A DNA stretch of 64,000 bases. Origin: Gossypium raimondii (taxonomy: Eukaryota > Streptophyta > Magnoliopsida > Malvales > Malvaceae). This document shows, piece by piece, positions 725-41,170 of the stretch (its first letter is position 1; each line of letters opens with the position of its first letter). Under the pieces are notes generated by a model. That model was given only the letters and a program-made list of their open reading frames with translations. It was not told where the DNA came from and ran no database searches. The position numbers and the translations under genes are program-made. The stretch covers positions 48,206,501 to 48,270,500 of the forward strand of contig NC_068566.1 of NCBI RefSeq assembly GCF_025698545.1, in the 5' to 3' direction.

Positions 725-3700
725 TGTAACAGCCCGATTTTGGGTCTAGTCGGAACAGTGATTTTGGGACTACAAATCCGATGAGGAAAAAATGTAAGGG
801 CCTGAATTTTCAGAGGTGTCGGAATAGTGATTCGATATCACTAAATTCGACAAATGGGTATAAAATATTATTAATTTAGTGAGTATAAGTTAAATGTGAA
901 GTTAGGAAAATTTTTGAAAAAGTGAATAGTACACTAGAAATAAATAATAAAATAATTAGAATCGAAAATAAGGTATCAAGACCTCGGGGATTTTAAACCA
1001 AGCCATAAATATTTTTATAAATATTTATGTAGTGTTAAAAAGTTAGTATTAAAGTTTCGTTAAGAAATTTTAAAGTTCCGATAATTAATTGAACAAAAAG
1101 AACTAAATTGTAACAAATGCAAAATTATGGGAAATGATTAAATAGCTTAAATGATAAAAGGAAGAGGGCTTAAAAGGCAAATAGACCCAAGGTCTATTTG
1201 GGCTGGACGGCAAAGGCATGAAATCAGCAACAAAGTAAGGAGAATTAAGGGCAAAATTGGAATATTACAAAATTTACTTAATAAAGTTAGGACCAAAGTG
1301 GAATTATCTAGATTTCTCTTCATTTTTCTGCATTCTCATCAGCAAAAACACCATAGAAGGGTTTCCTTAAGCTGGTTCTTCCTATTTTTACTGCATGTAA
1401 GTTCAATTCTTGATTATTTCTTGAAAATTTTATGTTTTTGTGACTTTTACAACTAGGCCCACTTGTTGAATTCATTAGTTTTTGATTCTATGAAAGAAGT
1501 TAAAAGTTGCTATGAATATGTGCTGGAAGTATATGATGATTTAGCATGGAATTAGAGCTTTAAATTGTTCATATGCTGATTTTATTGAAAGAATTGAATA
1601 GAAAGTGAATGTTTGGGACCTAAAAGTAAAAGAGTTTGAAGATAGAGTTATATGTGAAAATTCTGAATTTAAATAGTTGTGTAGCAACTTATAATGTCTA
1701 GGTAAAGTATTAATTGAGAAAATTATATTAATTGAGGGGTTACTTGAGAAAGGACCGAATTGTATAAACTGTGAAATTTGGGGCAAAATGGAAATCAACA
1801 TTTTGCACTAAAGCAGTTTTGGACAGCAGCATTAGTCTAACTTTGAAAAATCACCAAAAATTGTGGAAATTGAATTAGAGGATGAATAAAATATTAAATT
1901 AAAGCTTCTTGAGTCTAGTTTCTAATAGAAGAACCGGTGTAAGTAATGGAATTGTAAATTTTGAGATATTTGAAGTTTAGTTAGACCGAGTCAGAATGAT
2001 TTCAGAATCCCCTGTTCTGACTTTTGAAAATTGTTAAAAATTTAAAAAAAAAATAATTATGAGTTATAGTTTATATGCTTAGAATCTTTGATGAGTCTAT
2101 TTTCAAAAGAAATAAACGGAAATATCATCCGAATTCTGTACAATGAGATAATTAATTTTTAGTGAAGAGAGGTCAGAACTGTCAGACAGTGAAACAGATG
2201 AACTTTAAAGAATAAACTGTACTATTTGGCTAAACTAAAAATTTTGAAATTTTTATGGTAAGAATATATGTGAATCTAGTTTCAAGGAAAATTTACGGAT
2301 CTTAATTTGGAGTTCTGTAGCTCCATCGAAAAATAATTTAGTGACTCTAACTCAGACGGACAGCTTGAATTTTACATACAATAAAATAGTGAAAGTACGA
2401 ATAATGTTGTTTAAATGTGTTATACACATTAAGGATGAGGCATGGAGAGGAGGTGGAGGAAAATTGGGAAATATATGAATGATTTGTGTATAATTGGTCA
2501 TATGTTTGATTATAATTGATAAACGATGAAATATGAATGATGCTTATATTTGTGCATTATGAGTCATGGTTTAAGCTCATGTGTGAAAATAAAGTTTCAT
2601 AGTATGTGTGTATGGTATATTCGGTATATGATTTGGCATGAAATAATGTCATGAATGGTTTATCATGTGGTTAGTTTCAAAAAGAGTTATGTTTAAATAC
2701 ACTAGCTTGCAACTATGGTTGAATGATATGTTTATATCTTGTGTGATGTGCATGGGAACAAGTGTGGAAAGATAATGAAATAGTAAGTTCATATGGCTGA
2801 AATTTAATGATTAAACGTTAATTTCATGAATTATATAATGTATGATGAAATATATATTTATTGTTGAAATGAGAATAAAATAAAAATGCGAAAACTGAAT
2901 AAATGATCAAATTGAGCGGAACGCCGGATTTGAGTACTTCTGATCAGTGACAAAGTGATAAGTGGTAGCTTTATCTACACTTATCTGATCAATATACAAA
3001 GTGATAAGTGGTAATTTTAGCTACACTTATCTGATCAAGAGACAAAGTGATAAGTGGTAGCTTTAGCTACACTTATCTGATCAAGTGACAAAGTGATAAG
3101 TGATAGCTTTAGCTACACTTATCTGATCAAGTGACAAAGTGATAAGTGGTAGCTTTAGCTACACTTATCTGATCAAGTGACAAAGTGATAAGTGGTACCC
3201 TTAGCTACACTTATCTGATCAAGTGACAAAGTGATAAGTGGTAGCCTAGCTACGCTTATCTGATCAGGGACAAGTGATAAGTGATCATACATAAGACCAT
3301 AGTTATACTATGGCCAAGAGAAAGTGAATTACTCAATTTTCCGTAACCGTTCCCTAATTTGATTAAGGATGGTAAGTGACAAATGAGCCCAAAAGAATTA
3401 AAGCAAATGGATAAGTGGTTGTGTATTTATAACAAGATGATATTGTTATTTAAGCTAAAGTGATATTTTCATTGCAAAATTGAGAATTTCATAAATGTGT
3501 TATTGAATGGTATAATCGATAAACATTGAGATAAATGGTAAATACGTATTAGTGTTGAACTTAATGTCATTGAATTGTATGTGAATTAAATGAAAATTGC
3601 CAGTGATATGATTTAAATTGTGAGTATGAGAAATTGCGAATTGAATGAAATGGAAATGAAGCATTGAATTGCATGAGTATGTATCGGGTCTTGTAGGCCT

Positions 3701-3883
3701 TAATTATTATGATTATAATATTTTGAGGATATATTGTGAAAAGTTATAGAAGCATGTTAATTATTTTGAAAGTTTCAATTTAGATGAAATTTTATAACTC
3801 GGTTTAATACGTTTACAAGTGTATGTGTTTTGGTAATGCCTCGTACCCTATTTCGGTGTTGGATACGGGTAATGGGTGTTACA
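725..3883 (+). mobile_element. Inner solo LTR (3,159 bp), nested
   Basis: It begins TGTAACAGCCC at 725 and ends GGGTGTTACA at 3883. It is flanked by a perfect 5-bp duplication AGTGA (720-724 and 3884-3888), as expected for an LTR retrotransposon insertion. No retroelement proteins are encoded. The sequence on either side is continuous outer-LTR sequence, so this copy inserted later. Unusually, a second terminus-like head (TGTAAGGGCCTGAATTTTCA) begins at 792, 67 bp inside the first. The 2940-3290 section is a minisatellite, annotated separately. Family assignment is inferred from ends and size, most likely Ty3/gypsy type. Confidence 0.85.
2939..3290 (+). repeat. 46-bp minisatellite of palindromic units inside the LTR
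   Basis: There are about seven tandem units plus a partial one. The consensus has a linker TGATCAAGTGACAAAGT followed by a core with inverted arms GATAAGTG and CACTTATC around TAGCTTTAGCTA. TGATCA is itself palindromic. Units differ by a few substitutions. The sister LTR (3889-6701) has only about two units, at roughly 5691-5795, so copy number varies between copies. Confidence 0.9.
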
Positions 3884-5689
3884 AGTGAATTTTGCGTATT
3901 AAAGGAAATTATTAGATAAATTTAGATAAAAATGAGGTATCGAGGCCTCAGAATTAAAAATCGAGTCATAAATATTTTTATGAATATTTAAGGAGTGTGA
4001 ATAAGTTAGTATTAAAGTTTCGTTAGGAAATTTTAACATTTTGGTAGTCAATTGAATGATAATGACTAAATTAAAAAGGGTGCAAAACTTGCTAAAGTGA
4101 TTAAATAGCTTAAGTGATGAATAAGGAGGGACTTAAGGTATAAATATGGCAATAGGGGATAGTTGAGGCCGCATAAGAAAGAAAAAAATCTAGAAAATTG
4201 ATGTAATAATGGCAAAATTGGAAAATTTGCAAAATTAACAAATAAAAATATTAATTAAAAGAGTTTTTAGGCAATTCTTCATATTTCCCAGCCAAAAACG
4301 CCATTGAAGAGTCCCTCCAAGCTGGTTTTTCACATATTTGAATCATGTAAGTTCAATTCTTGATTATTTCTTGTAATTTTTGTGATTTTGTGACTTTTAC
4401 AACTAGGTCCACTTGTTGAATTCATTAGTTTTTGATTCTATGAAAGAAATTGAGAGTTGCTATGAATATGTGCTGGAAGTATATGATTATTTATCATGGA
4501 ATTAGAGCTTTAAATTTTTTATATGCCGATTTTATTGAAAGAATTTAATAGAAATTGAATGTTTGGGACTTAATAGTAAAAGAGATTGAAGTTAGGGTTT
4601 TATGTGGAAATTCTGAATTTCAATAGTTGTGAAATAACTTATAATGTCTAGGTAAAGTACTAATTGAGAAAAAAAATAGCTTAATTGAGGGGTTAATTGA
4701 GCAAGGACTGAATTATATGAACTGTGAAATTTGGGGCAAAATGGAAATCAACATTTTGCATTAAAACAATTTTGGACAGAAGCAGTAGTCTAACTTTGAA
4801 AAATCACCAAAAATTGTGGGAATCGAATTAGGGATTAATAAAATATAAAATTAAAGCTTATTGAGTCTAGGTTCTCATAAAAGAAACAGTGTAAGCAATG
4901 AAATTGTAAATCATGCGATATAATAAAATTTGTGAGACAATGTTAGAATGATTTTGGGTTCCCCTGTTTTGACTTTATAAAATCATCAAAAATTGAAAAA
5001 AAGTAATTAGGGACTTAAATTTATATGTTTAAAATCCTGAATGAGTCTATTTTCAAGAGAAATAAACGGGAACATCATCAGAATCACATACGAGGAGATA
5101 ATTAATTTTTAGTGAAGAAGGGTCGGAACTGTTAGATAGTAGAACAAAGGTGACTTTAAATAATAAACTGTACTTATTAGCTAAGCCAAATATTCTAAAA
5201 ATGTTATGGTAAGAAGACATGTGAGTCTAGTTTCAGAGAAAATTAGCGGATCCTAATTTGAAGTTCTGTAGCTCAAGATAAAAATAATTTAGTGACTATG
5301 ACACAGATGAACAGCATTAAATATACATAAGTAAATAGAGAAATTATAGATAATGTTACTTATAAGCAGGTTATAAACATTAAGGATGTGAAATAGAGTG
5401 AATGTGAAGTCAATACTGATAAGTGAATGATTTTACAATGATAGATCGAGAACCCGAAGCAAATCGAGGAAAAGAAAAAGTAGTTAATTAGTCCCTGAAC
5501 TTTCAAAAATTCTGTAAATCGACCCAGGTAAGTTCATATTGCTGGAATTTAATGATTAAATGTTAATTTCATGGATTATATAATGAATAATGTATAATGA
5601 GATATATTTAGTGATGACCTGAGAATAAAATAATAATGCGAAAACTGAATAAATGATCAAATTGAGCGGAACGTCGGATTTGAGTACTT

Positions 5690-5815
5690 CTGATCAGTGA
5701 CAAGTGATAAATGGTAGCTTTAGCTACACTTATCTGATCAGTGACAAGTGACAAGTGATAAGTGATAGCTTTAGCTACGCTTATCTAATCAATGATAAGC
5801 AACAAGTGATAAATG
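5690..5815 (+). repeat. Short version of the same minisatellite in the outer LTR
   Basis: About two units of the TGATCA / GATAAGTG...CACTTATC repeat are present, with degenerate extra GTGACAAGTGATAAG pieces. It sits at the equivalent place in the outer LTR, upstream of the shared CCGTAACCGTTCCCTAATTT block. Confidence 0.8.
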
Positions 5816-6701
5816 TGATCCGTGTAAGACCGTGACAGGGCAATGGCTTTAGAAAGTGATAAGTAATCATACGCAATACCATAGTTATACTATGGCAAAG
5901 TGGAAGTGAAGTACTCAATTTTCCGTAACCGTTCCCTAATTTGATTAAGGATGGTAAGTGACAAATGAGCCCAAAAGAATTATTGTAAATGGATAAGTGG
6001 TAGTGAGTTTATATAAGGGAAGTCACCAATGATTGTGGTTGATAGGTGAACTTAGTAATGGTGTTTAATGTATGAGTCTATGAATGTTTGGTAAGATTTA
6101 TATTTTATGCCTATGAACTTATTAAGTTTCTATAAGCTTACTTGAGTGTATTCAATGCCTCTTGTAGATTGCTGTGAAAATATACGGAGGATCAGATCAA
6201 CACTGAGGATCACGCTATCCAAATTATCTCCGGTAGCTTTTGTAAATTTCTTTTAGATTTATATAACATGTATATGGTTTGATAATTACATAAATGCCAA
6301 AACTTGTTTAATGAATATGTATTAAAGTAAAGAGTGATAATATGCTAAATGGTATAATTATAATACAAGTATGATTTGGTATCAAATTGATTGAAATGGA
6401 TTGGTTGGTTTGGATTGGTCTCGGTTTTAAATTTTGCAAGGAAGGTTGGACATTTACAAAGGGATTATATTGAGTTCATAAATTTTTCTTTTGGATTTTG
6501 CAAAAAATTCCCTATGGTTTGATTTCATCCTGGTTTGGTCCCGAAGTATGTTTTGGGCTTTGGAGACCCATCTAAAGGACGTCATGACATATTTCGGTAA
6601 ATGAATAGTAATTAACTCGTAATAATAAAAATTTAATTTGGTAAACTCTGGTAATGCCTCGTACCCTATTTCGGCGACGAATACGGGTAGGGGGTGTTAC
6701 A

Positions 6702-29290: not shown

Positions 29291-32200
29291 TCAAGATGGA
29301 TCAGTGTCGAGCTTTGGAACTATGGCAGACGATAGCTCTATATGAGAAACACGGACCGCACCAATTAGCCGCTCTGGCAGCTCATCCGTCATATTTGCCT
29401 AAGGTGGAGAAAAGAAAAGGAAATTTAAAAGAAAAAAATGCAACCACTTTTAAGCCAACATATAGTAATGCAACACAAGTAAATCACAAATGTGACTACA
29501 ATGGCCTACGCCTAAATTCTACCAGCGATGAGCAGTAGCCCTGTATAGCCCTATGAAACCAGAATTGTGTGGTTAGATATCATGTGAAGACTATTATGAG
29601 TATACTCTTTGCTCCTAACATGCCATTAATAATGAAAACAATCATTAATGCCACTTCCTACTAAATCTGAATGCTCGCAAGTCAGTGTACAGTGCGGTGA
29701 TAAATTGCAAAGCAAGTATTATTTTCCCGATAACAGTGCTGTTTAAGGCAACTTATGTTTTAGAAGAACCTTACCTGTACAAGAAAAGCCATGTCAACCA
29801 CCAATGTTGTAATTACACCAATAACAAGCCCCAGGACTCCATTAGCAACCGTAGAAGAACCTATGTCAATATCAACCTACAGAGAGAAATAAACAAATAA
29901 ACCTACATCACAAAGATCCTTACATATTGCTACATTTAGGTATTAAAAAAATCATAAGGATCCTTACTTCTAAGTACTTAGGACCACGGATATAGTTGCA
30001 ATCAACAGCTTTTCCCAACAAACAAGGGGTGCTCCCAACACTCTGTCGCACAATCCATGATCCCTGCAAGATCCCAGGTGAACAATTCAAGAACAAGGTT
30101 TCAAAGGAGAATAGCAAAGGATAGACAAAGTAAATGGACGGAAAGAACCATGGAGGGACAATTAGAAGGAAGACTGCCTCCAACTGTTTCAAACATCCTG
30201 ATTTAAACATTAGTCCAAACACAATGAAGAGAGAGATACCTTTGGTACTGATGGAATAAGCTTCAGTCTACTATTGCGGAATTCATCATCACCGTCAACA
30301 AATCGATGCAAAAGGGAACCAGGTACTAGTTCCTTTGTCACAAAATAAAATACCATACTATAGTGTGTTGAGCCAGGAACCTGGGGCAAAAACAACATAA
30401 ACCACTCAACATCCAGATCCATTAGTATAGGATACAACACTACCTGCATCATGAATACTTACTTGAACATTAAAGACCAAAGAGAAAAGCCCCATTTGTG
30501 AAGCAATCTACAAAAGGAAACAACAAGGATTAGAGAACTGTAAATATACTTCATAAAATAATTAATTGATTTTCCACATCAACATAGTTCATGGTGACAA
30601 TCCAAGAAAACCATAACCAAAGAAAACTTGGCCAAGACAAAGCATGGCTCTTATAAGTGTAATGTAACTCTTTGTTCCATTTTTTTCACCAAAAAAATTA
30701 GCTTAATCACAGTAGTAACATAAACATGGTACTCTAATTTGGAGTTCCTTCTACTAAGTCTGTAGGTTCAGGTTAATTATACTTCATTTCCATTAAAACG
30801 TTTCCTGTTTAGTTGTAAAACTATCATATACCCTTCATTTAATAAAAAATGTGGATATATTTGAAGGTTGTGGATTCTATTCCCAAAATACCATCAGACA
30901 AGTTTGAGGTCCTAGTTTCAAGTCTTAGCACGCAGATGGGGTGCCCAAAGGAATGAGACTCTGATACCTCCATCTTGCAACCTAACTAATGGAGCTAACA
31001 AAAGAATTTTGATCTGCCACATGCATAACCTGAATCCAATCTAAATGACAACTATTTCAGGTAGTGGAGTTGCTACAACAAGAAATGCAACTCAACATAT
31101 AAGTAAACCAATCAGTTACAATGCAACCGGTTTTGTCTCCCATGTGTATCACAATGTGCACCGTGATTTGAAGTAAAGGCTTAAAGGACGGCAGAACAGA
31201 GACCATAATAGCAAATGGAGCAGAAATAACTAAATAAACTAACCATATACTAACAATCCAGCTTTCTCAGGAAATAAGGTACAGACTATTGAAGTGAAGC
31301 AGAAGAGTACAGAGGCAAACTACAATAAAACATAACTTCTCAGACTCACTTGTGCAGCACATCCTTGACGCCTAGCAACATGATCCATTCTTTTTGTGTC
31401 TTTAAACCAATCAACAGCAACAAGATCCATTAAATGCTTCCCCGCAGGAATCTTCATTGCATATAGGGAGAAGTGCAAACAAAGACATAAGATATTGATT
31501 TGCATGTACAAAATGTAACTAGAAGAACAAGCACAAGAATGGGAACCTTTGTTTTATTGTAACAAAAATGTTGGCTACGGACTCTGAAATTGTTACCATC
31601 TGATATAGTCCAACAGTTACGAGAATTATCGCGGTCATCGCGTCGTAGATTACCAGAAAAGCATGACAAATCAATTTTCTCAATTGGTTCTTCTTCCAGG
31701 GCTTTAATTCATAAAAAAACATTGTATATTTGAGATAAAAAGTCAGTCCCACAAATTTATCTTATCCAATTACAACAAAAGAATCCAATATAAGATTATT
31801 AGTAGGACCCCACCTGTTCTCTTGAAATCATTGTCACTTTTAGTTGGATATGCCTGAAAATTTTAGTGAAATAAGAAACCTACAGTTAGGAATAATTCAA
31901 ACAAAAATTATATAAAGATAATGATAATATGAAACCTCTTGTTCTGCCTCAGGCATTTGTTCTTCATCCTCGTCAGAGTATTCATCCATCAACACAGAGT
32001 TTCGGTTTGCAGCATTTGTTTGATCAAGAGAAGGGGCAGAGGGAACAGATAACTCAAACATCCTCTGAGTCTTCTTTGAGGAAACTGAAGATGAGGCCAT
32101 ATTGACCATAACTGGAATTCTAGGAGTAGCACCTCTTTCATCTGTTTGAGCAAACCATTCACGCAATCCTGCAGTGAGAGGTTAAAAGATGTTTAAACAA

Positions 32201-35200: not shown

Positions 35201-37580
35201 CTTCTCCCACTCATTTATGAAAAAAACTCTCTACCCATGAGGATTTGATCCGAAGACTTGAAGACACTCAAGTAGCTTTACAAAAGACCACAGCCACACA
35301 CCCACCAGACTCGCCACAAAATAACATTCACTTTTATCAACACAGATAGACAACAGCAAAAAGAAAAATGGTGGTAAATTGGCACTTACTGACTTTCATG
35401 ATCTGATGATGAAGCAGTCCTCCCATTATCCATCCCAGATTTATATTCAAAAGAAACATATTTGTTTCCATTTGCAACTTGTGACTCTTGATGCTGCACA
35501 TGAAAATGATGTAACCACACAATTAAATCGATCTGGGTAACAGATTAACGTAAAAAATTTATATTAAGTTCACAAAGAAAATACGACCCTAGTCCATTGC
35601 ACAGAGGTTATAAGGGTGAACCAACTATAAAATGCAAGTCTTAAACATGGAAAGAAGCAGGAATTAGGTTACAAACTCAGCGATGTACCTTATCAATTAC
35701 AGACTCTATTTTTTCCTTCCACATTAGGGCTTCCTGGATGTTGAATGCTGCCATCTTGAAAGAAGAAAGCAGACATGGATCTATTTTAGGTTCCCAAAAT
35801 TCAAAAGCATAAGATTTTGTAACTGGATGTAAAAGGAAACATAGGGACCAAAGAGGTCACATAGTAAATCCAAAACATTTATCGCTTATGCTTCCACAAT
35901 GACAGAGAAACACAGTGCAATTTAAGCATGTATCACTTTGAAAACAGATGCCCCTCTAGTCTCGTCAGATAAAAATTTCCCATTTAATAATAAATTCACT
36001 CATAATAAAGAGGCTAACTCAATTCAGGATGTACCAAACCGTCAAGAGCAATCAAAGTGGAACTCAAGTACATGTCCATATAGTAAAGCTAAGCGCATCA
36101 CCAATATATGCCAATGTGACTAAAGTCCTTCAGCATAGAACTGGCAAAACCATTGTTCATTTATCAAAAAGTACATGAGATAAGTGATCTGCCAACAGCA
36201 AAGTAGCAATTGGGGTTCATTCCTAGAAACTCTCTCCTGACAGCAGGTAAGAGCCTAAGAGAGAAGAAGCCAAAAACATGTTTCATTTCTCCAAATTGAA
36301 TAACCAACATAACAACATGAGGTTATTAAGCATCTAAGAATATACATTCATATACTGTTTTCTATAATTAAAATAAGAACAAACCGTGATTCTGTGGTAC
36401 TTCTCTTTCTTGTTGTAAACAGATAAAACATAAACCATCTGCAAAATATAAACCATGAGAAAGTCAAAATGAAGGATAAACGAGTGTTCTATCAAAAGGA
36501 ATACATTTCACAGTGCACTAGAATATAACTTCTTATGAAACATAACTGTGATCAAACAACCATGCATAAACTGAGACAATATGCGAGAGCATTCATGAGT
36601 CTCAACAAAAGATACAGGGGACAGGGAAGAGCAATAAAATATAATAAGCAAAACAGCAGGTCAATAAGGAGACTACCAAATCTCTAGAAGACAACAATAT
36701 AAAATGCATAGTAATCATCAGTATAAGAATGCAGGTTACATCTGATCTGATAATATGCTTACGAATACACACATGTACACATACAAGTACATCTATGTAT
36801 ATATATGATATTAGAGAGTTTCAGCCTTGGCTACCGACAGCAGCATTTTGCACTGTAATTACCATTATAACATCGATATGCTAAAATAGAATACAAGCAA
36901 ACACACACATACAAACGAGGAGACAACAACTCACGTGTCCATGGTGGGTCTTCAAGCCTCTATCCTCCACTCTACAGTTTCCGTCTATCAACATAGTCTT
37001 TATTGGAACCTGATTTTGGGAACACAACCGTTCTTAACAGTCAACAACAGTGCTTGAATTTAGTTATAAAATGAACGCAATGCACAAAAGCGAATAGTCA
37101 GAAGAAACACAAAGGTTTTTCGAAAAAATGAAAATAAAAATTACTCTGCTCTCTTTTCATAAACAGTAAGAATGTGAGGCATCTTGTCAACAAGATGCTC
37201 CTGCTTTTACAAAAAGCACGGCATCATTAACCATAAAAGCTCCATTACTTAAAATAAAATTAAACCGAAGGCAATTGCTCTTAATTAACATTTTAAAAGC
37301 AACTTTTCTCTCTTCTGCAATCCTAAAAAACAAAAGACGAAATCAACTTCTTTTAATTATTATAAATACTTATATCCTTTAAGAAGCTAAAAAATGCCCA
37401 AGCAAAATTAAGAATTCTAAAACAAAAAAAAAAATTAAAGACCTGATTATCTTGTGGTTTTCTCTTGTAGTAAGCCAGAAGCCGATTTTCGAGCACGAAA
37501 TACCGCATGTGTATGAAGGAGCGGCCGATCTTCCTTCGTCCATATCTCACCATCCATCCTTCGTACACCACCTTTGACAT
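29291..37580 (-). CDS. EDR2L: EDR2-like PH-START-DUF1336 protein, with frameshift in exon 7
   Basis: EDR2 proteins bind phosphatidylinositol 4-phosphate and repress pathogen-triggered cell death. Twenty-two exons in order: 37580-37443, 37009-36935, 36438-36385, 35754-35689, 35493-35390, 34749-34682, 34598-34481, 34321-34281, 34175-34075, 33917-33822, 32947-32883, 32789-32718, 32626-32471, 32168-31936, 31853-31814, 31701-31547, 31451-31350, 30507-30463, 30380-30240, 30063-29968, 29876-29775, 29398-29291. The PH domain is at residues 1 to about 110 (MSKVVYEGWMVRYGRRKIG), START at about 195-390 (MSMDGTRFEWDCSFQYGSLV, WFPVFVWPRDLCYVRYWRR), and the EDR2 C-terminal DUF1336 at about 480-710. Without the defect it would be 724 residues, normal for EDR2. 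Exon 7 is 118 nt where 117 is needed: TTTT instead of TTT at about 34558-34564 puts a TGA after residue 181, before START. Either a real loss-of-function mutation or a sequence error. Confidence 0.93.
33324..33390. repeat. A-tract plus (GAA)n microsatellite in an EDR2L intron
   Basis: A run of about 17 A residues is followed by about 13 tandem GAA units and interrupted GAAAAAG. It lies in the ~870-bp intron between EDR2L exons 10 and 11. A short (CATA)n run sits nearby at about 33,188-33,207. Confidence 0.9.
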
Positions 37581-38031: not shown

Positions 38032-38041
38032 TTTTATATTG

Positions 38042-39565
38042 GGGTAAACTACAAAAATAGTCACTTTTGTTTGGCTCAGGTTACATTTTAGTCACTTATA
38101 TTTAAAATGTTACGTCTTAGTCACTTATGTTATTATTTTTTTACGAAGTGATCACTCTTCCGTTAAGTTCCGTTATCTCCCAACAGTAATCCTACGTGGC
38201 AGTCTAACTAGATTTTAAGTGCCAAATTGGATTTCCTAATGGGATGAGAATATATTTTTAATTAAATAAATTTAATTAATTAAAAATTTTAAACCTTAAA
38301 TCTTAATTAAAAAACCGTTCATCTCCTTTTTTTTTAGTTTTCTTTTTCAGTTGACTAAGAAAGTTATTTTTTAGCCATGGTTAGATACACACAGCTGACC
38401 ATGCATTATTATTTAGTTTCTAACATATTACATGTTATTCAGTACTCTTAACTTACAGCCATGGAATTTGCTCTGAATAAGATTGATAAACACTGGGACA
38501 ATAACAGAAGCCTTAATCAGCATATGAATGACCTGAAAAGGAAAGTAATGGAATTGAATGCTGTGAAGGAAGATATAGATTCTAGAATGAAAGTAGAGCT
38601 GCAGCTAAGAAAGAAACTCAAGATGGAGGTCTAGATATGGTTAGAAAACGTTGAAAGAATCAATGGCGAAGTTCAAAACCTTAATGAACGAATCGGTGAA
38701 AGCAGTACTCTTACACGTGGATTTCATGCAGACGATGTGTTAAAGAGGACAAGAGAAGTTGAGGAACTTATTCAGCAAGGCAAATTTCAGGAAGTTTGGT
38801 GGTTGACAATCCTCAATGGATTGGATAGGTTTTGTCGACAACAAGATTATCAGGTGAAGGTACAAAGGTCTGTATGGAAGAGATTTGGAAGTGCTTGATG
38901 GATGATGAGGTTGGAAAGATTGGATTTTGGGGGATGGGTGGTGTGGGGAAAACAAGCATCATGAAACTTATAAACAATCAACTCTTACAAGAGAGGGAGA
39001 AGTTCGATATTGTGATTTGGATCACTGCATCCAAGGAGATGAGTATTGCTAAGCTACAGAAGGCCATTGCAAGTCAAATTAAAGTAACTTTTTGTGGTGA
39101 CGAATGTGAAACAAGAAGGGCACAGATGCTGTTTGAAACATTGTCTCGGAAGAGTAGATTTGTGGTGATCTTGGATGACATATGGGAAGCGGTTTCCCTT
39201 GAGAAGCTAGGAATTCCTGAGCCATCTACTGGGATTAAATTAGTGTTGAAAACTAAAAAAAGAAAACTAAAAAAATGGGGGAGATGAACCGTTTTTTAAC
39301 TAAAATTTAGGGTTTAAAAATTTTAATTAATTAAATTTATTTAAATAAAAATCTATTCTCATCCCATTAGGAAATCTAAGTTGACACTAGAAATCTAGTC
39401 AGACTGCCACGTAGGATTACCGTTAGGGAGATAATAGAACTTAACGAAATAGTGATCACTTTGTAACAAAATAATAACATAAGTGGCTAAAACGTAACAA
39501 TTCAAACATAAGTGACTAAAATGTAATCTGAGGCAAACAAAAGTGACTATTTTTGTAGTTTACCC
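38042..39565. mobile_element. Pack-MULE-like element (1,524 bp) carrying an NLR gene fragment
   Basis: The left end GGGTAAACTACAAAAATAGT is repeated inverted at the right end (ACTATTTTTGTAGTTTACCC). The inverted repeat runs about 300 bp on each side (38042 to about 38345, about 39255 to 39565) with scattered mismatches. Flanks carry a perfect 10-bp direct repeat TTTTATATTG (38032-38041, 39566-39575), of the size made by Mutator transposases. Between the arms lies about 900 bp of NLR resistance-gene sequence instead of a transposase. Long TIRs, a 9-10 bp duplication and captured host coding DNA together define a Pack-MULE. It is non-autonomous. Confidence 0.88.
38461..39250 (+). pseudogene. 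Captured CC-NBS resistance-gene (NLR) fragment
   Basis: It starts at ATG 38461 with a coiled-coil region (LKRKVMELNAVKEDIDSRM). An in-frame TAG at 38632-38634, from a CAG codon, interrupts the expected VQIWLENVERINGEV. A frameshift near 38,800-38,832 moves reading into a second frame that contains the P-loop GMGGVGKTS, the RNBS-A-like FDIVIWITASKEM and the kinase-2 FVVILDDIWE. It ends abruptly at about PSTGIKLVL, where the TIR begins; the rest of the NBS and all LRRs are missing. The pattern resembles the RPS2/At4g27220 class of CNLs. It could still be transcribed as a chimeric or small-RNA-producing RNA, but nothing here proves that. Confidence 0.88.
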
Positions 39566-39589
39566 TTTTATATTGGGTAAAATATATTT

Positions 39590-40113
39590 GGATAAACTGT
39601 GCTTAGTCACTAAACTGTTAGTAAATTTACATTTTGGTCATTAAACTTCAAAAAATTACAAAATAATCACTAAACTGTTTGGAAGTTTTCATTTAAGTCA
39701 TTAGGTTGTTAAGTTTTTTTTCTAAAGTCTAACTAAGGAGCTTCAAGTAAGGATTTGAGGATTGATGTAATGGATCAACACCCACTGATAAGTAGAAGAA
39801 TATACTATAAATTCAAGTCAATCTTATAGTCAATGTCAAAATCGAAAAAGAAAGCTATTTAAGTTTTGGTTTGTAGAATCTTGACGATTAAAGTTGTTTT
39901 ATAAAAAACTGAATCAAATAAGAGAAGTAGAATGAGAGCTTTTGATTAGTGCAAACGGTGTGAATAGAGAAGGCTATACAACATTGATTCTAATAGTCTA
40001 GTAACTTAAATGAAACTTTTGAATAGTTCTATAATTATTTTGTAATTTTTTAAAATTAAGTAACCAAAATATAAATTTACTAATAATTTAGTAATCTTAA
40101 GCTTAGTTTAGGT
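39590..40113. mobile_element. MITE-like element (524 bp) next to the Pack-MULE
   Basis: The ends form an imperfect inverted repeat of about 110 bp: the left arm (CTTAGTCACTAAACTGTTAG, then AAATTTACATTTTGGTCA) matches the right arm read on the other strand (AAATTTATATTTTGGTTA, AAAAAATTACAAAATAAT). A 9-bp direct repeat AATATATTT flanks it (39581-39589, 40114-40122). It begins only 14 bp after the Pack-MULE target duplication. No coding capacity. The end bases are divergent, so boundaries could be off by 1-2 bp. Confidence 0.7.
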
Positions 40114-40480: not shown

Positions 40481-41170
40481 TAGAGATATATCAGAGCAAG
40501 TCCCCGTAAACAGATTTTCTTTGACCCTTGTGCAACCAGGGCTGCTATCATCACGTGCGGAGGACTCTATCTTGGGATGAATACTTTTATAAGGGAGCTG
40601 GTTGTTGGCCTTTGGGAGCTCTATGGAGTGTGCCAATTTTACGGTTTCACCTCGTTGAGCTTAATCCCAAGATGATGCATAGCTGACATAGGAAGGGCGA
40701 AACTGTGCTTAGAACATCTACGGTTGTCTTTGACCTCACAAAGATTGTTGATGCTGTTGAGAACCACGTCTTTAATCAGGTTTGCTTGTTGTTTGCCAAT
40801 TATGTATATACATATATTAGTTTCTGAAGTAATTGGATGTGTTTCTTTTGTCTTAATTGGATAATGAATTTGACATCAACTAAATTTAACATATTATAGG
40901 TTTACATTATAGGCGAAGATGGCACAATGCGTAGTGTTGTCAAAATATTTGAGGAGATTCAGCGGCGGAAACTGAAAGTAGGAGTTAACGGAATTTCGAA
41001 AACTGTTGACAACGATGTGAGCATAATTGATAGATCATTTGGATTCCAGACAGCTGTAGAAATGATAGAGCAAGTAATCCATGTAGCTCGGTCGTATGAA
41101 TGGAATCGGCGTAGTGAAGCTAATGGGTGGAAGCAATACATGCAGTTTTGTCAAGTCCTACGCTAGCAAA
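40481..41170 (+). pseudogene. ATP-dependent 6-phosphofructokinase fragment, broken
   Basis: The first piece (about 40,481-40,779) reads SPRKQIFFDPCATRAAIITC then GGLYLGMNTFIREL, the start of the plant PFK catalytic core. After an intron with GT...AG ends (40780-40899) it continues VYIIGEDGT and [20 protein letters not shown], the latter matching the PFK substrate motif KTIDNDI...FGFDTAV. Frameshifts and in-frame stops (around 40,670-40,770 and after 41,090, where [11 protein letters not shown] appears in another frame) break it. Several catalytic positions differ from consensus (GEDGT for GGDGT). Because it keeps an intron it came from a genomic duplication rather than a retrocopy. Similarity ends at about 41,130; the rest of the gene is missing. 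Confidence 0.82.

Follow-up and report, generated by a model that had tools for sequence, protein, structure and literature searches.

The window analysed here, 64,000 nt of the Gossypium raimondii genome, carries a 1,524-bp element of the Mutator family at positions 38042–39565, inserted upstream of an EDR2-family gene and enclosing a piece of an NLR gene. The left terminal inverted repeat (TIR; 38042–38362, plus strand) starts with GGGTAAACTACAAAAATAG and the right one (39257–39565, minus strand) ends with GTTTACCC; the arms, about 320 bp long and 88% complementary, align over 322 bp at 87.9%, with two gap-free blocks, 157 and 147 nt long, that are 88–89% complementary. A perfect 10-bp target-site duplication (TSD), TTTTATATTG, lies at 38032–38041 and again at 39566–39575. 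The initial annotation had described inverted ends of about 300 bp and a perfect 10-bp flanking repeat; both are there, and its coordinates, 38032–39575, are exact when the flanking repeat is counted in on both sides. Pfam searches of two pieces of this copy returned no transposase family between the arms and, below threshold, one match to gag (E=0.0014). The right edge of the cargo adjoins 14 bases of arm sequence that are duplicated.

The cargo is an 891-bp captured piece of a CC-NBS-LRR gene (38363–39253, plus strand) with a broken reading frame. It comprises approximately 100 bp 5' of the ATG, the N-terminal (coiled-coil) part and the region from the P-loop to kinase-2, the motifs GMGGVGKTS and LDDIW, which we take to be the P-loop and kinase-2, respectively, both being present. 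The NB-ARC fragment (38895–39248, plus strand) lies in a shifted frame after a 1-base deletion and matches PF00931 at E=1e-25 over profile positions 15–126 of 248. No LRR was found between the arms, and the cargo ends at about codon 264 of the parent, so that the earlier reading of a CC-NBS fragment with P-loop and kinase-2 but without LRR holds. From the captured start codon, 57 codons (38461–38631, plus strand) precede a stop at codon 58, a Gln codon in the parent; the 1-base deletion and a further stop at codon 123 complete the damage in this copy.

To the left, an EDR2-family gene runs on the minus strand from an ATG at 37580, and the element starts some 460 bp upstream of this ATG. The first exon of the gene lies within an open stretch at 37356–37580 (minus strand); this first stretch gives a weak PH match below Pfam's cut-off, EDR2_C pieces at 29923–30458 account for two matches above the cut-off, and two other stretches that were scanned have no Pfam match. 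The placement just upstream of EDR2L, as originally proposed, is therefore correct as to position and gene family, but EDR2 and EDR2L are not told apart by these matches. EDR2 is reported, in the part of PMC1955445 available to us, to negatively regulate cell death and salicylic-acid defences. On the right, the element is directly followed by a second inverted-repeat stretch (39576–40113), with arms at 39609–39688 and 40013–40092 that are 80% complementary and edges that, judged by eye, may bear a 9-bp duplication, AATATATTT. Given these arms and the possible duplication, the region upstream of the EDR2-family gene may contain two adjacent MULE- or MITE-type insertions. Just beyond the Mutator-family element, at 40900–41163, there is a phosphofructokinase piece (PF00365).

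The host genome (750.8 Mb in 281 contigs) contains, among the best 40 of 2363 candidates from a search with the whole stretch, at least seven full copies of the element that are 97–100% identical over its whole length. These copies (L001–L007) sit on six contigs, namely C2, C3 (two copies), C4, C8, C10 and C11, and each is flanked by a 9–10-bp TSD of its own sequence (7/7; six perfect, L005 with one mismatch). When left and right flanks were swapped among the copies, a TSD appeared in 0 of 42 combinations. The search for further copies suggested in the initial annotation thus yielded seven full matches, each inserted at a distinct target. Pairwise differences over the element range from 1.58% to 2.89%, except for L005 and L006, which differ by only 0.59% and for which a fairly recent move is therefore likely as judged from this divergence. 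Next to L005, inspection by eye suggests a reading frame about 570 bp away, on the minus strand from position ~934 and running away from the element, whose start resembles a mitochondrial targeting peptide; at this distance, L005 is possibly a second promoter-side insertion.

The cargo is contiguous with C11:3403437–3404331, to which it is about 94% (93.6%) identical, the element interior aligning to this NLR locus from edge to edge and the likeness stopping at both cargo edges. At the left junction, one base (G) is common to the arm and the parent, and at the right junction at most three bases (TGA) are. Since the cargo begins about 100 bp before the ATG, the segment was most likely taken as DNA. 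A genome search with the cargo alone returned, among the best 40 of 61 candidates, the seven copies first, followed by an NLR cluster on C11 and a relative on C10, as well as a 148-base piece on C1 at 93%. In a phylogenetic tree that took in six of the seven parent-like loci, and in which 4 of the 10 inner branches are weak, the seven copies form one clade (100/100), with the C11:3.403 Mb locus as its sister (100/99).

This closest relative of the cargo (L031, G000:C11:3398001-3408000) is a truncated NLR, near position 6539 of that locus, and its likeness to the 902-codon neighbour stops at codon 337, within a T-rich, AT-rich stretch. Neighbouring genes in the C11 cluster, at 3.385, 3.326 and 3.358 Mb, have open stretches of 902, 907 and 911 codons, respectively, and the two that were scanned (902 and 911 codons) match NB-ARC, winged-helix and RPS2-type LRR domains. 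The expectation that a parent NLR would be found elsewhere in the genome was accordingly borne out in that a parent-like locus exists in the C11 cluster at 94% identity, but the best-matching locus is cut off at codon ~337. Which gene served as donor is uncertain; it may have been the one at C11:3.403 Mb or a sister of that gene, since lost. The best-matching NLR locus is devoid of the TIRs, which argues against the alternative, raised alongside the initial annotation, that TIRs and NLR segment are contiguous at an ordinary NLR locus.

The coding state of the cargo bears on the time at which its frame was closed. Codon 123 is TAG in all seven copies and CAG in both closest loci, so that, on this comparison, the frame was most likely already closed when the spread began, the stop having arisen before or at its start. 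Every copy bears at least one further lesion. Six of the seven have one or two single-base indels, at least one of them frame-shifting in each (L004, L005 and L006 have one deletion in common), extra stops occur in four and one has lost its ATG. Changes among the copies are distributed over the three codon positions as 12/13/19, with five more outside the coding part; this flat pattern carries little weight by itself, as the differences between the two closest NLR loci are rather evenly spread too (20/24/29).

The arms of the element belong to a large family. The 29-mer at the start of the arm matches the genome exactly at 168 places and its reversed control at none, which speaks against the possibility that the TIR family is absent elsewhere. 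Among 25 members whose ends we examined (the seven copies, L038–L050, L059 and L060–L063), 23 have a TSD of 9–11 bp with at most one mismatch, compared with 9 of 600 mismatched flank pairs; L043, for which the second of two possible left ends was used, and L047 have no good TSD at the fixed ends. Examination of the spacing of the 29-mer matches, among the first 100 of the 168 places, led to L059, a 7.04-kb element on C7 with the same TIRs and the TSD TATAATAAC. Its minus strand holds three successive open stretches: the first matches PF10551 (MULE) and PF03108 (MuDR DNA-binding), the third matches PF04434 (SWIM), and the middle one is without a Pfam match. These separate open stretches hold pieces of a possibly defective Mutator transposase and, as they lie between the same arms, tie the TIR family to it. 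A genome search with the MULE domain yielded too many loci to be connected with these TIRs, and the L059 locus was not among the best 150 of 2055 candidates.

At least five kinds of internal sequence are enclosed by these TIRs in the genome, two of them without a Pfam match in the pieces scanned. Members L038–L041 contain a piece of an inorganic phosphate transporter gene and L043 carries at least part of the same piece; the frame is open in L038 and L039, and DNA alignment assigns L040, L041 and L043 to the same group. Among solved relatives, Inorganic phosphate transporter 1-11 comes closest to the L039 piece (E=4e-46). L038 (G000:C8:50543001-50551000, 2143–6211) is a 4.07-kb member with an insert of about 1.7 kb that recurs at many sites and is probably a nested repeat. 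At least three copies within the family, L060, L061 and L062, contain the 5' portion of a gene for cysteinyl-tRNA synthetase (PF01406 in L060 and L062; L061 by alignment). No Pfam match was obtained for the scanned pieces of the L042 and L063 interiors; the L042 interior has diverged matches elsewhere that fall into exon-like blocks, and its segment 1490–2305 has matches of 93–95% at four further places (C3, C8, C2 and C5).

The cargo copies bear a mutational signature that depends on sequence context. Summed over all copies, C-to-T (or G-to-A) departures from the majority base were counted at 8/165 CG, 14/364 CHG and 11/1896 CHH sites, that is, 22/529 in CG and CHG together versus 11/1896 in CHH (P=3e-8), whereas changes of other kinds are not biased in this way at these sites (2/529 versus 15/1896, P=0.55). 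The difference persists when each column is counted once (17/76 versus 10/271, P=2e-6). On the C11 parent's own branch, C-to-T changes amount to 0/26 CG and 0/57 CHG, and on the stem common to the copies, which predates their spread, to 1/26 CG, 3/57 CHG and 6/272 CHH, where a bias is not clear. The arms display a weaker bias with CHH raised too (CG 8/168, CHG 4/133, CHH 21/959). We interpret the bias in the cargo as the footprint of CG and CHG methylation over time, from which the copies appear to be, or to have been, methylated in these contexts. Together, the shared stop, the private decay of each copy and the CG/CHG deamination point to a silenced passenger.

Collectively, the sequence data make it very probable that the element is an amplified, silenced, non-coding Pack-MULE, a decayed passenger with an NLR fragment. 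The Pack-MULE identity put forward in the initial annotation is upheld by the TIRs, the 9–10-bp TSDs in 7/7 copies, the parent locus elsewhere in the genome and the sharing of TIRs with the transposase-bearing L059. Presumably, one member of the large TIR family acquired 891 bp of DNA from a CC-NBS-LRR gene in the C11 cluster, probably via template switching during gap repair; at the junctions, no more than 1 and 3 bp are shared. The cargo-bearing element would then have moved to at least seven sites, and since the TIRs are shared, relatives, for instance the 7-kb element on C7, may have provided a MURA-type transposase in trans. The codon 123 stop would have been in place before or at the start of this spread, and after insertion the copies would, as the deamination footprint suggests, have been methylated in CG and CHG contexts and, as non-coding passengers, decayed. 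We thus infer the order capture, stop, spread and deamination.

The assignment to a known phenomenon, a Pack-MULE with a captured piece of a host gene, is well supported. Pack-MULEs have reportedly been described in rice, by Jiang et al. in 2004. The present element resembles them in its long TIRs, 9–10-bp TSDs and host gene fragment between the arms, in the lack of a transposase inside and in the occurrence of several copies with different TSDs; it differs in that the cargo is an NLR fragment with the same stop in all seven copies and that one TIR family is associated with at least five kinds of internal sequence. For rice MULEs, the accessible part of PMC4858842 states that the parental sequences are low in methylation and that the internal sequences gain CG, CHG and, with one exception, CHH methylation with age; here, methylation is read from a mutation footprint rather than from bisulfite data. 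In the excerpts available, PMC5664825, PMC12405883 and PMC3256180 mention Pack-MULEs only in general or in references, and we found no description of this NLR-carrying element in the open-licence literature on Pack-MULEs, resistance genes and Gossypium. The case is rather complete in that one genome brings together a parent-like locus, seven siblings, a relative with transposase pieces and an inferred succession of events. It also places immune-receptor pieces among the cargo of the TIR family, and the copies, along with the C11 cluster, provide concrete loci for the idea that Pack-MULE copies silence their parents.

Several other explanations have to be weighed against that of a silenced passenger. 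That the element is not a MULE at all, being instead a Helitron, a retrocopy or an assembly artefact, has a practically negligible probability in view of the long TIRs, the TSDs in 7/7 copies with distinct flanks, the capture of sequence upstream of the ATG and the MULE-family transposase pieces in the relative L059. It is only slightly less far-fetched that a short coiled-coil or NB-ARC protein is made from the cargo and perturbs NLR signalling: although the start codon is kept in 6/7 copies and the first 122 codons are open in two of them (L004 and L005), an earlier stop or frameshift is present in the other five (L001, L002, L003, L006 and L007), one of which is also the copy without a start codon, and the codon positions change about evenly. 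We reject a protein function of the cargo given the stop common to all copies and their further lesions. An effect of the insertion on the EDR2-family promoter, via spreading of methylation or new regulatory sequence, is unlikely, yet the least so of the alternatives. The short distance to the ATG, the methylated appearance of the copies (as read from the deamination footprint) and the second inverted-repeat stretch directly adjoining the element would be in keeping with such an effect, but the captured gene piece points away from the EDR2-family gene, and many MULE insertions near gene starts are thought to be neutral.

A working small-RNA source along the lines of the hairpin suggested in the initial annotation, in which read-through transcripts would fold back through the arms, be diced and trim the C11 NLR cluster in trans, is improbable, more so than the promoter effect. 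The geometry of the arms would allow a foldback, and the footprint in the cargo is what RNA-directed methylation would leave. Moreover, of the 871 21-mers of the window copy, 247 match the C11:3.403 Mb locus exactly and 72 the locus of the 902-codon gene; across the seven copies, each with ~871 cargo 21-mers, these numbers range over 202–247 and 72–136, respectively. However, few 21-mers match the farther paralogs (0–7 per copy for L034, L035 and L036), the best-matching C11:3.403 Mb gene is itself truncated, and CG/CHG deamination is to be expected at any silenced transposon. Even smaller is the probability we assign to the joint scenario, in which the Pack-MULE copies act as a dispersed source of silencing RNAs damping the live C11 NLRs while also marking the promoter of an EDR2-family immunity regulator; if it were true, a single prolific Pack-MULE family would distribute non-coding fragments of an NLR cluster throughout the genome as a joint silencing source.

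Triggering of small RNAs by miR482 was considered as well. By sequence likeness, hairpins not being considered, miR482-like 22-mers occur at 13 places in the genome and represent nine distinct sequences, which were scored by the criteria of PMC3877274 (score ≤3.5, no mismatch at positions 10–11 and no two consecutive mismatches). On the given strand, 0/9 have a passing site in any of the seven copies or in the two closest loci, L031 and L032, which counts against a small-RNA source. The P-loop site does not vary among the copies (7/7), and all nine sequences are mismatched to it at position 11; the best score on the element is 3.0, again with a mismatch at position 11, and the best-scoring sequence (C11:6253944) may be the antisense of an NLR P-loop. 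As the position-11 mismatch breaks the published criteria, we rejected a miR482 trigger for the element as unsupported. Unlike the copies, four farther paralogs among the seven parent-like NLR loci (L033, L034, L036 and L037) hold sites that pass. Compared with the miR482-triggered phased small RNAs from cotton NLR P-loops covered in the available part of PMC3877274, the cargo is alike in that it includes the P-loop region read by miR482 in other NLRs, and unlike in that no miR482-like sequence satisfies the criteria on the element. One miR482-like sequence is present in five copies in the genome, and on C5 two sites start 186 bases apart, with 164 bases between them; for Gossypium raimondii, the same part of that paper lists five loci of miR482d along with a tandem pair of miR482 members separated by 164 bp.
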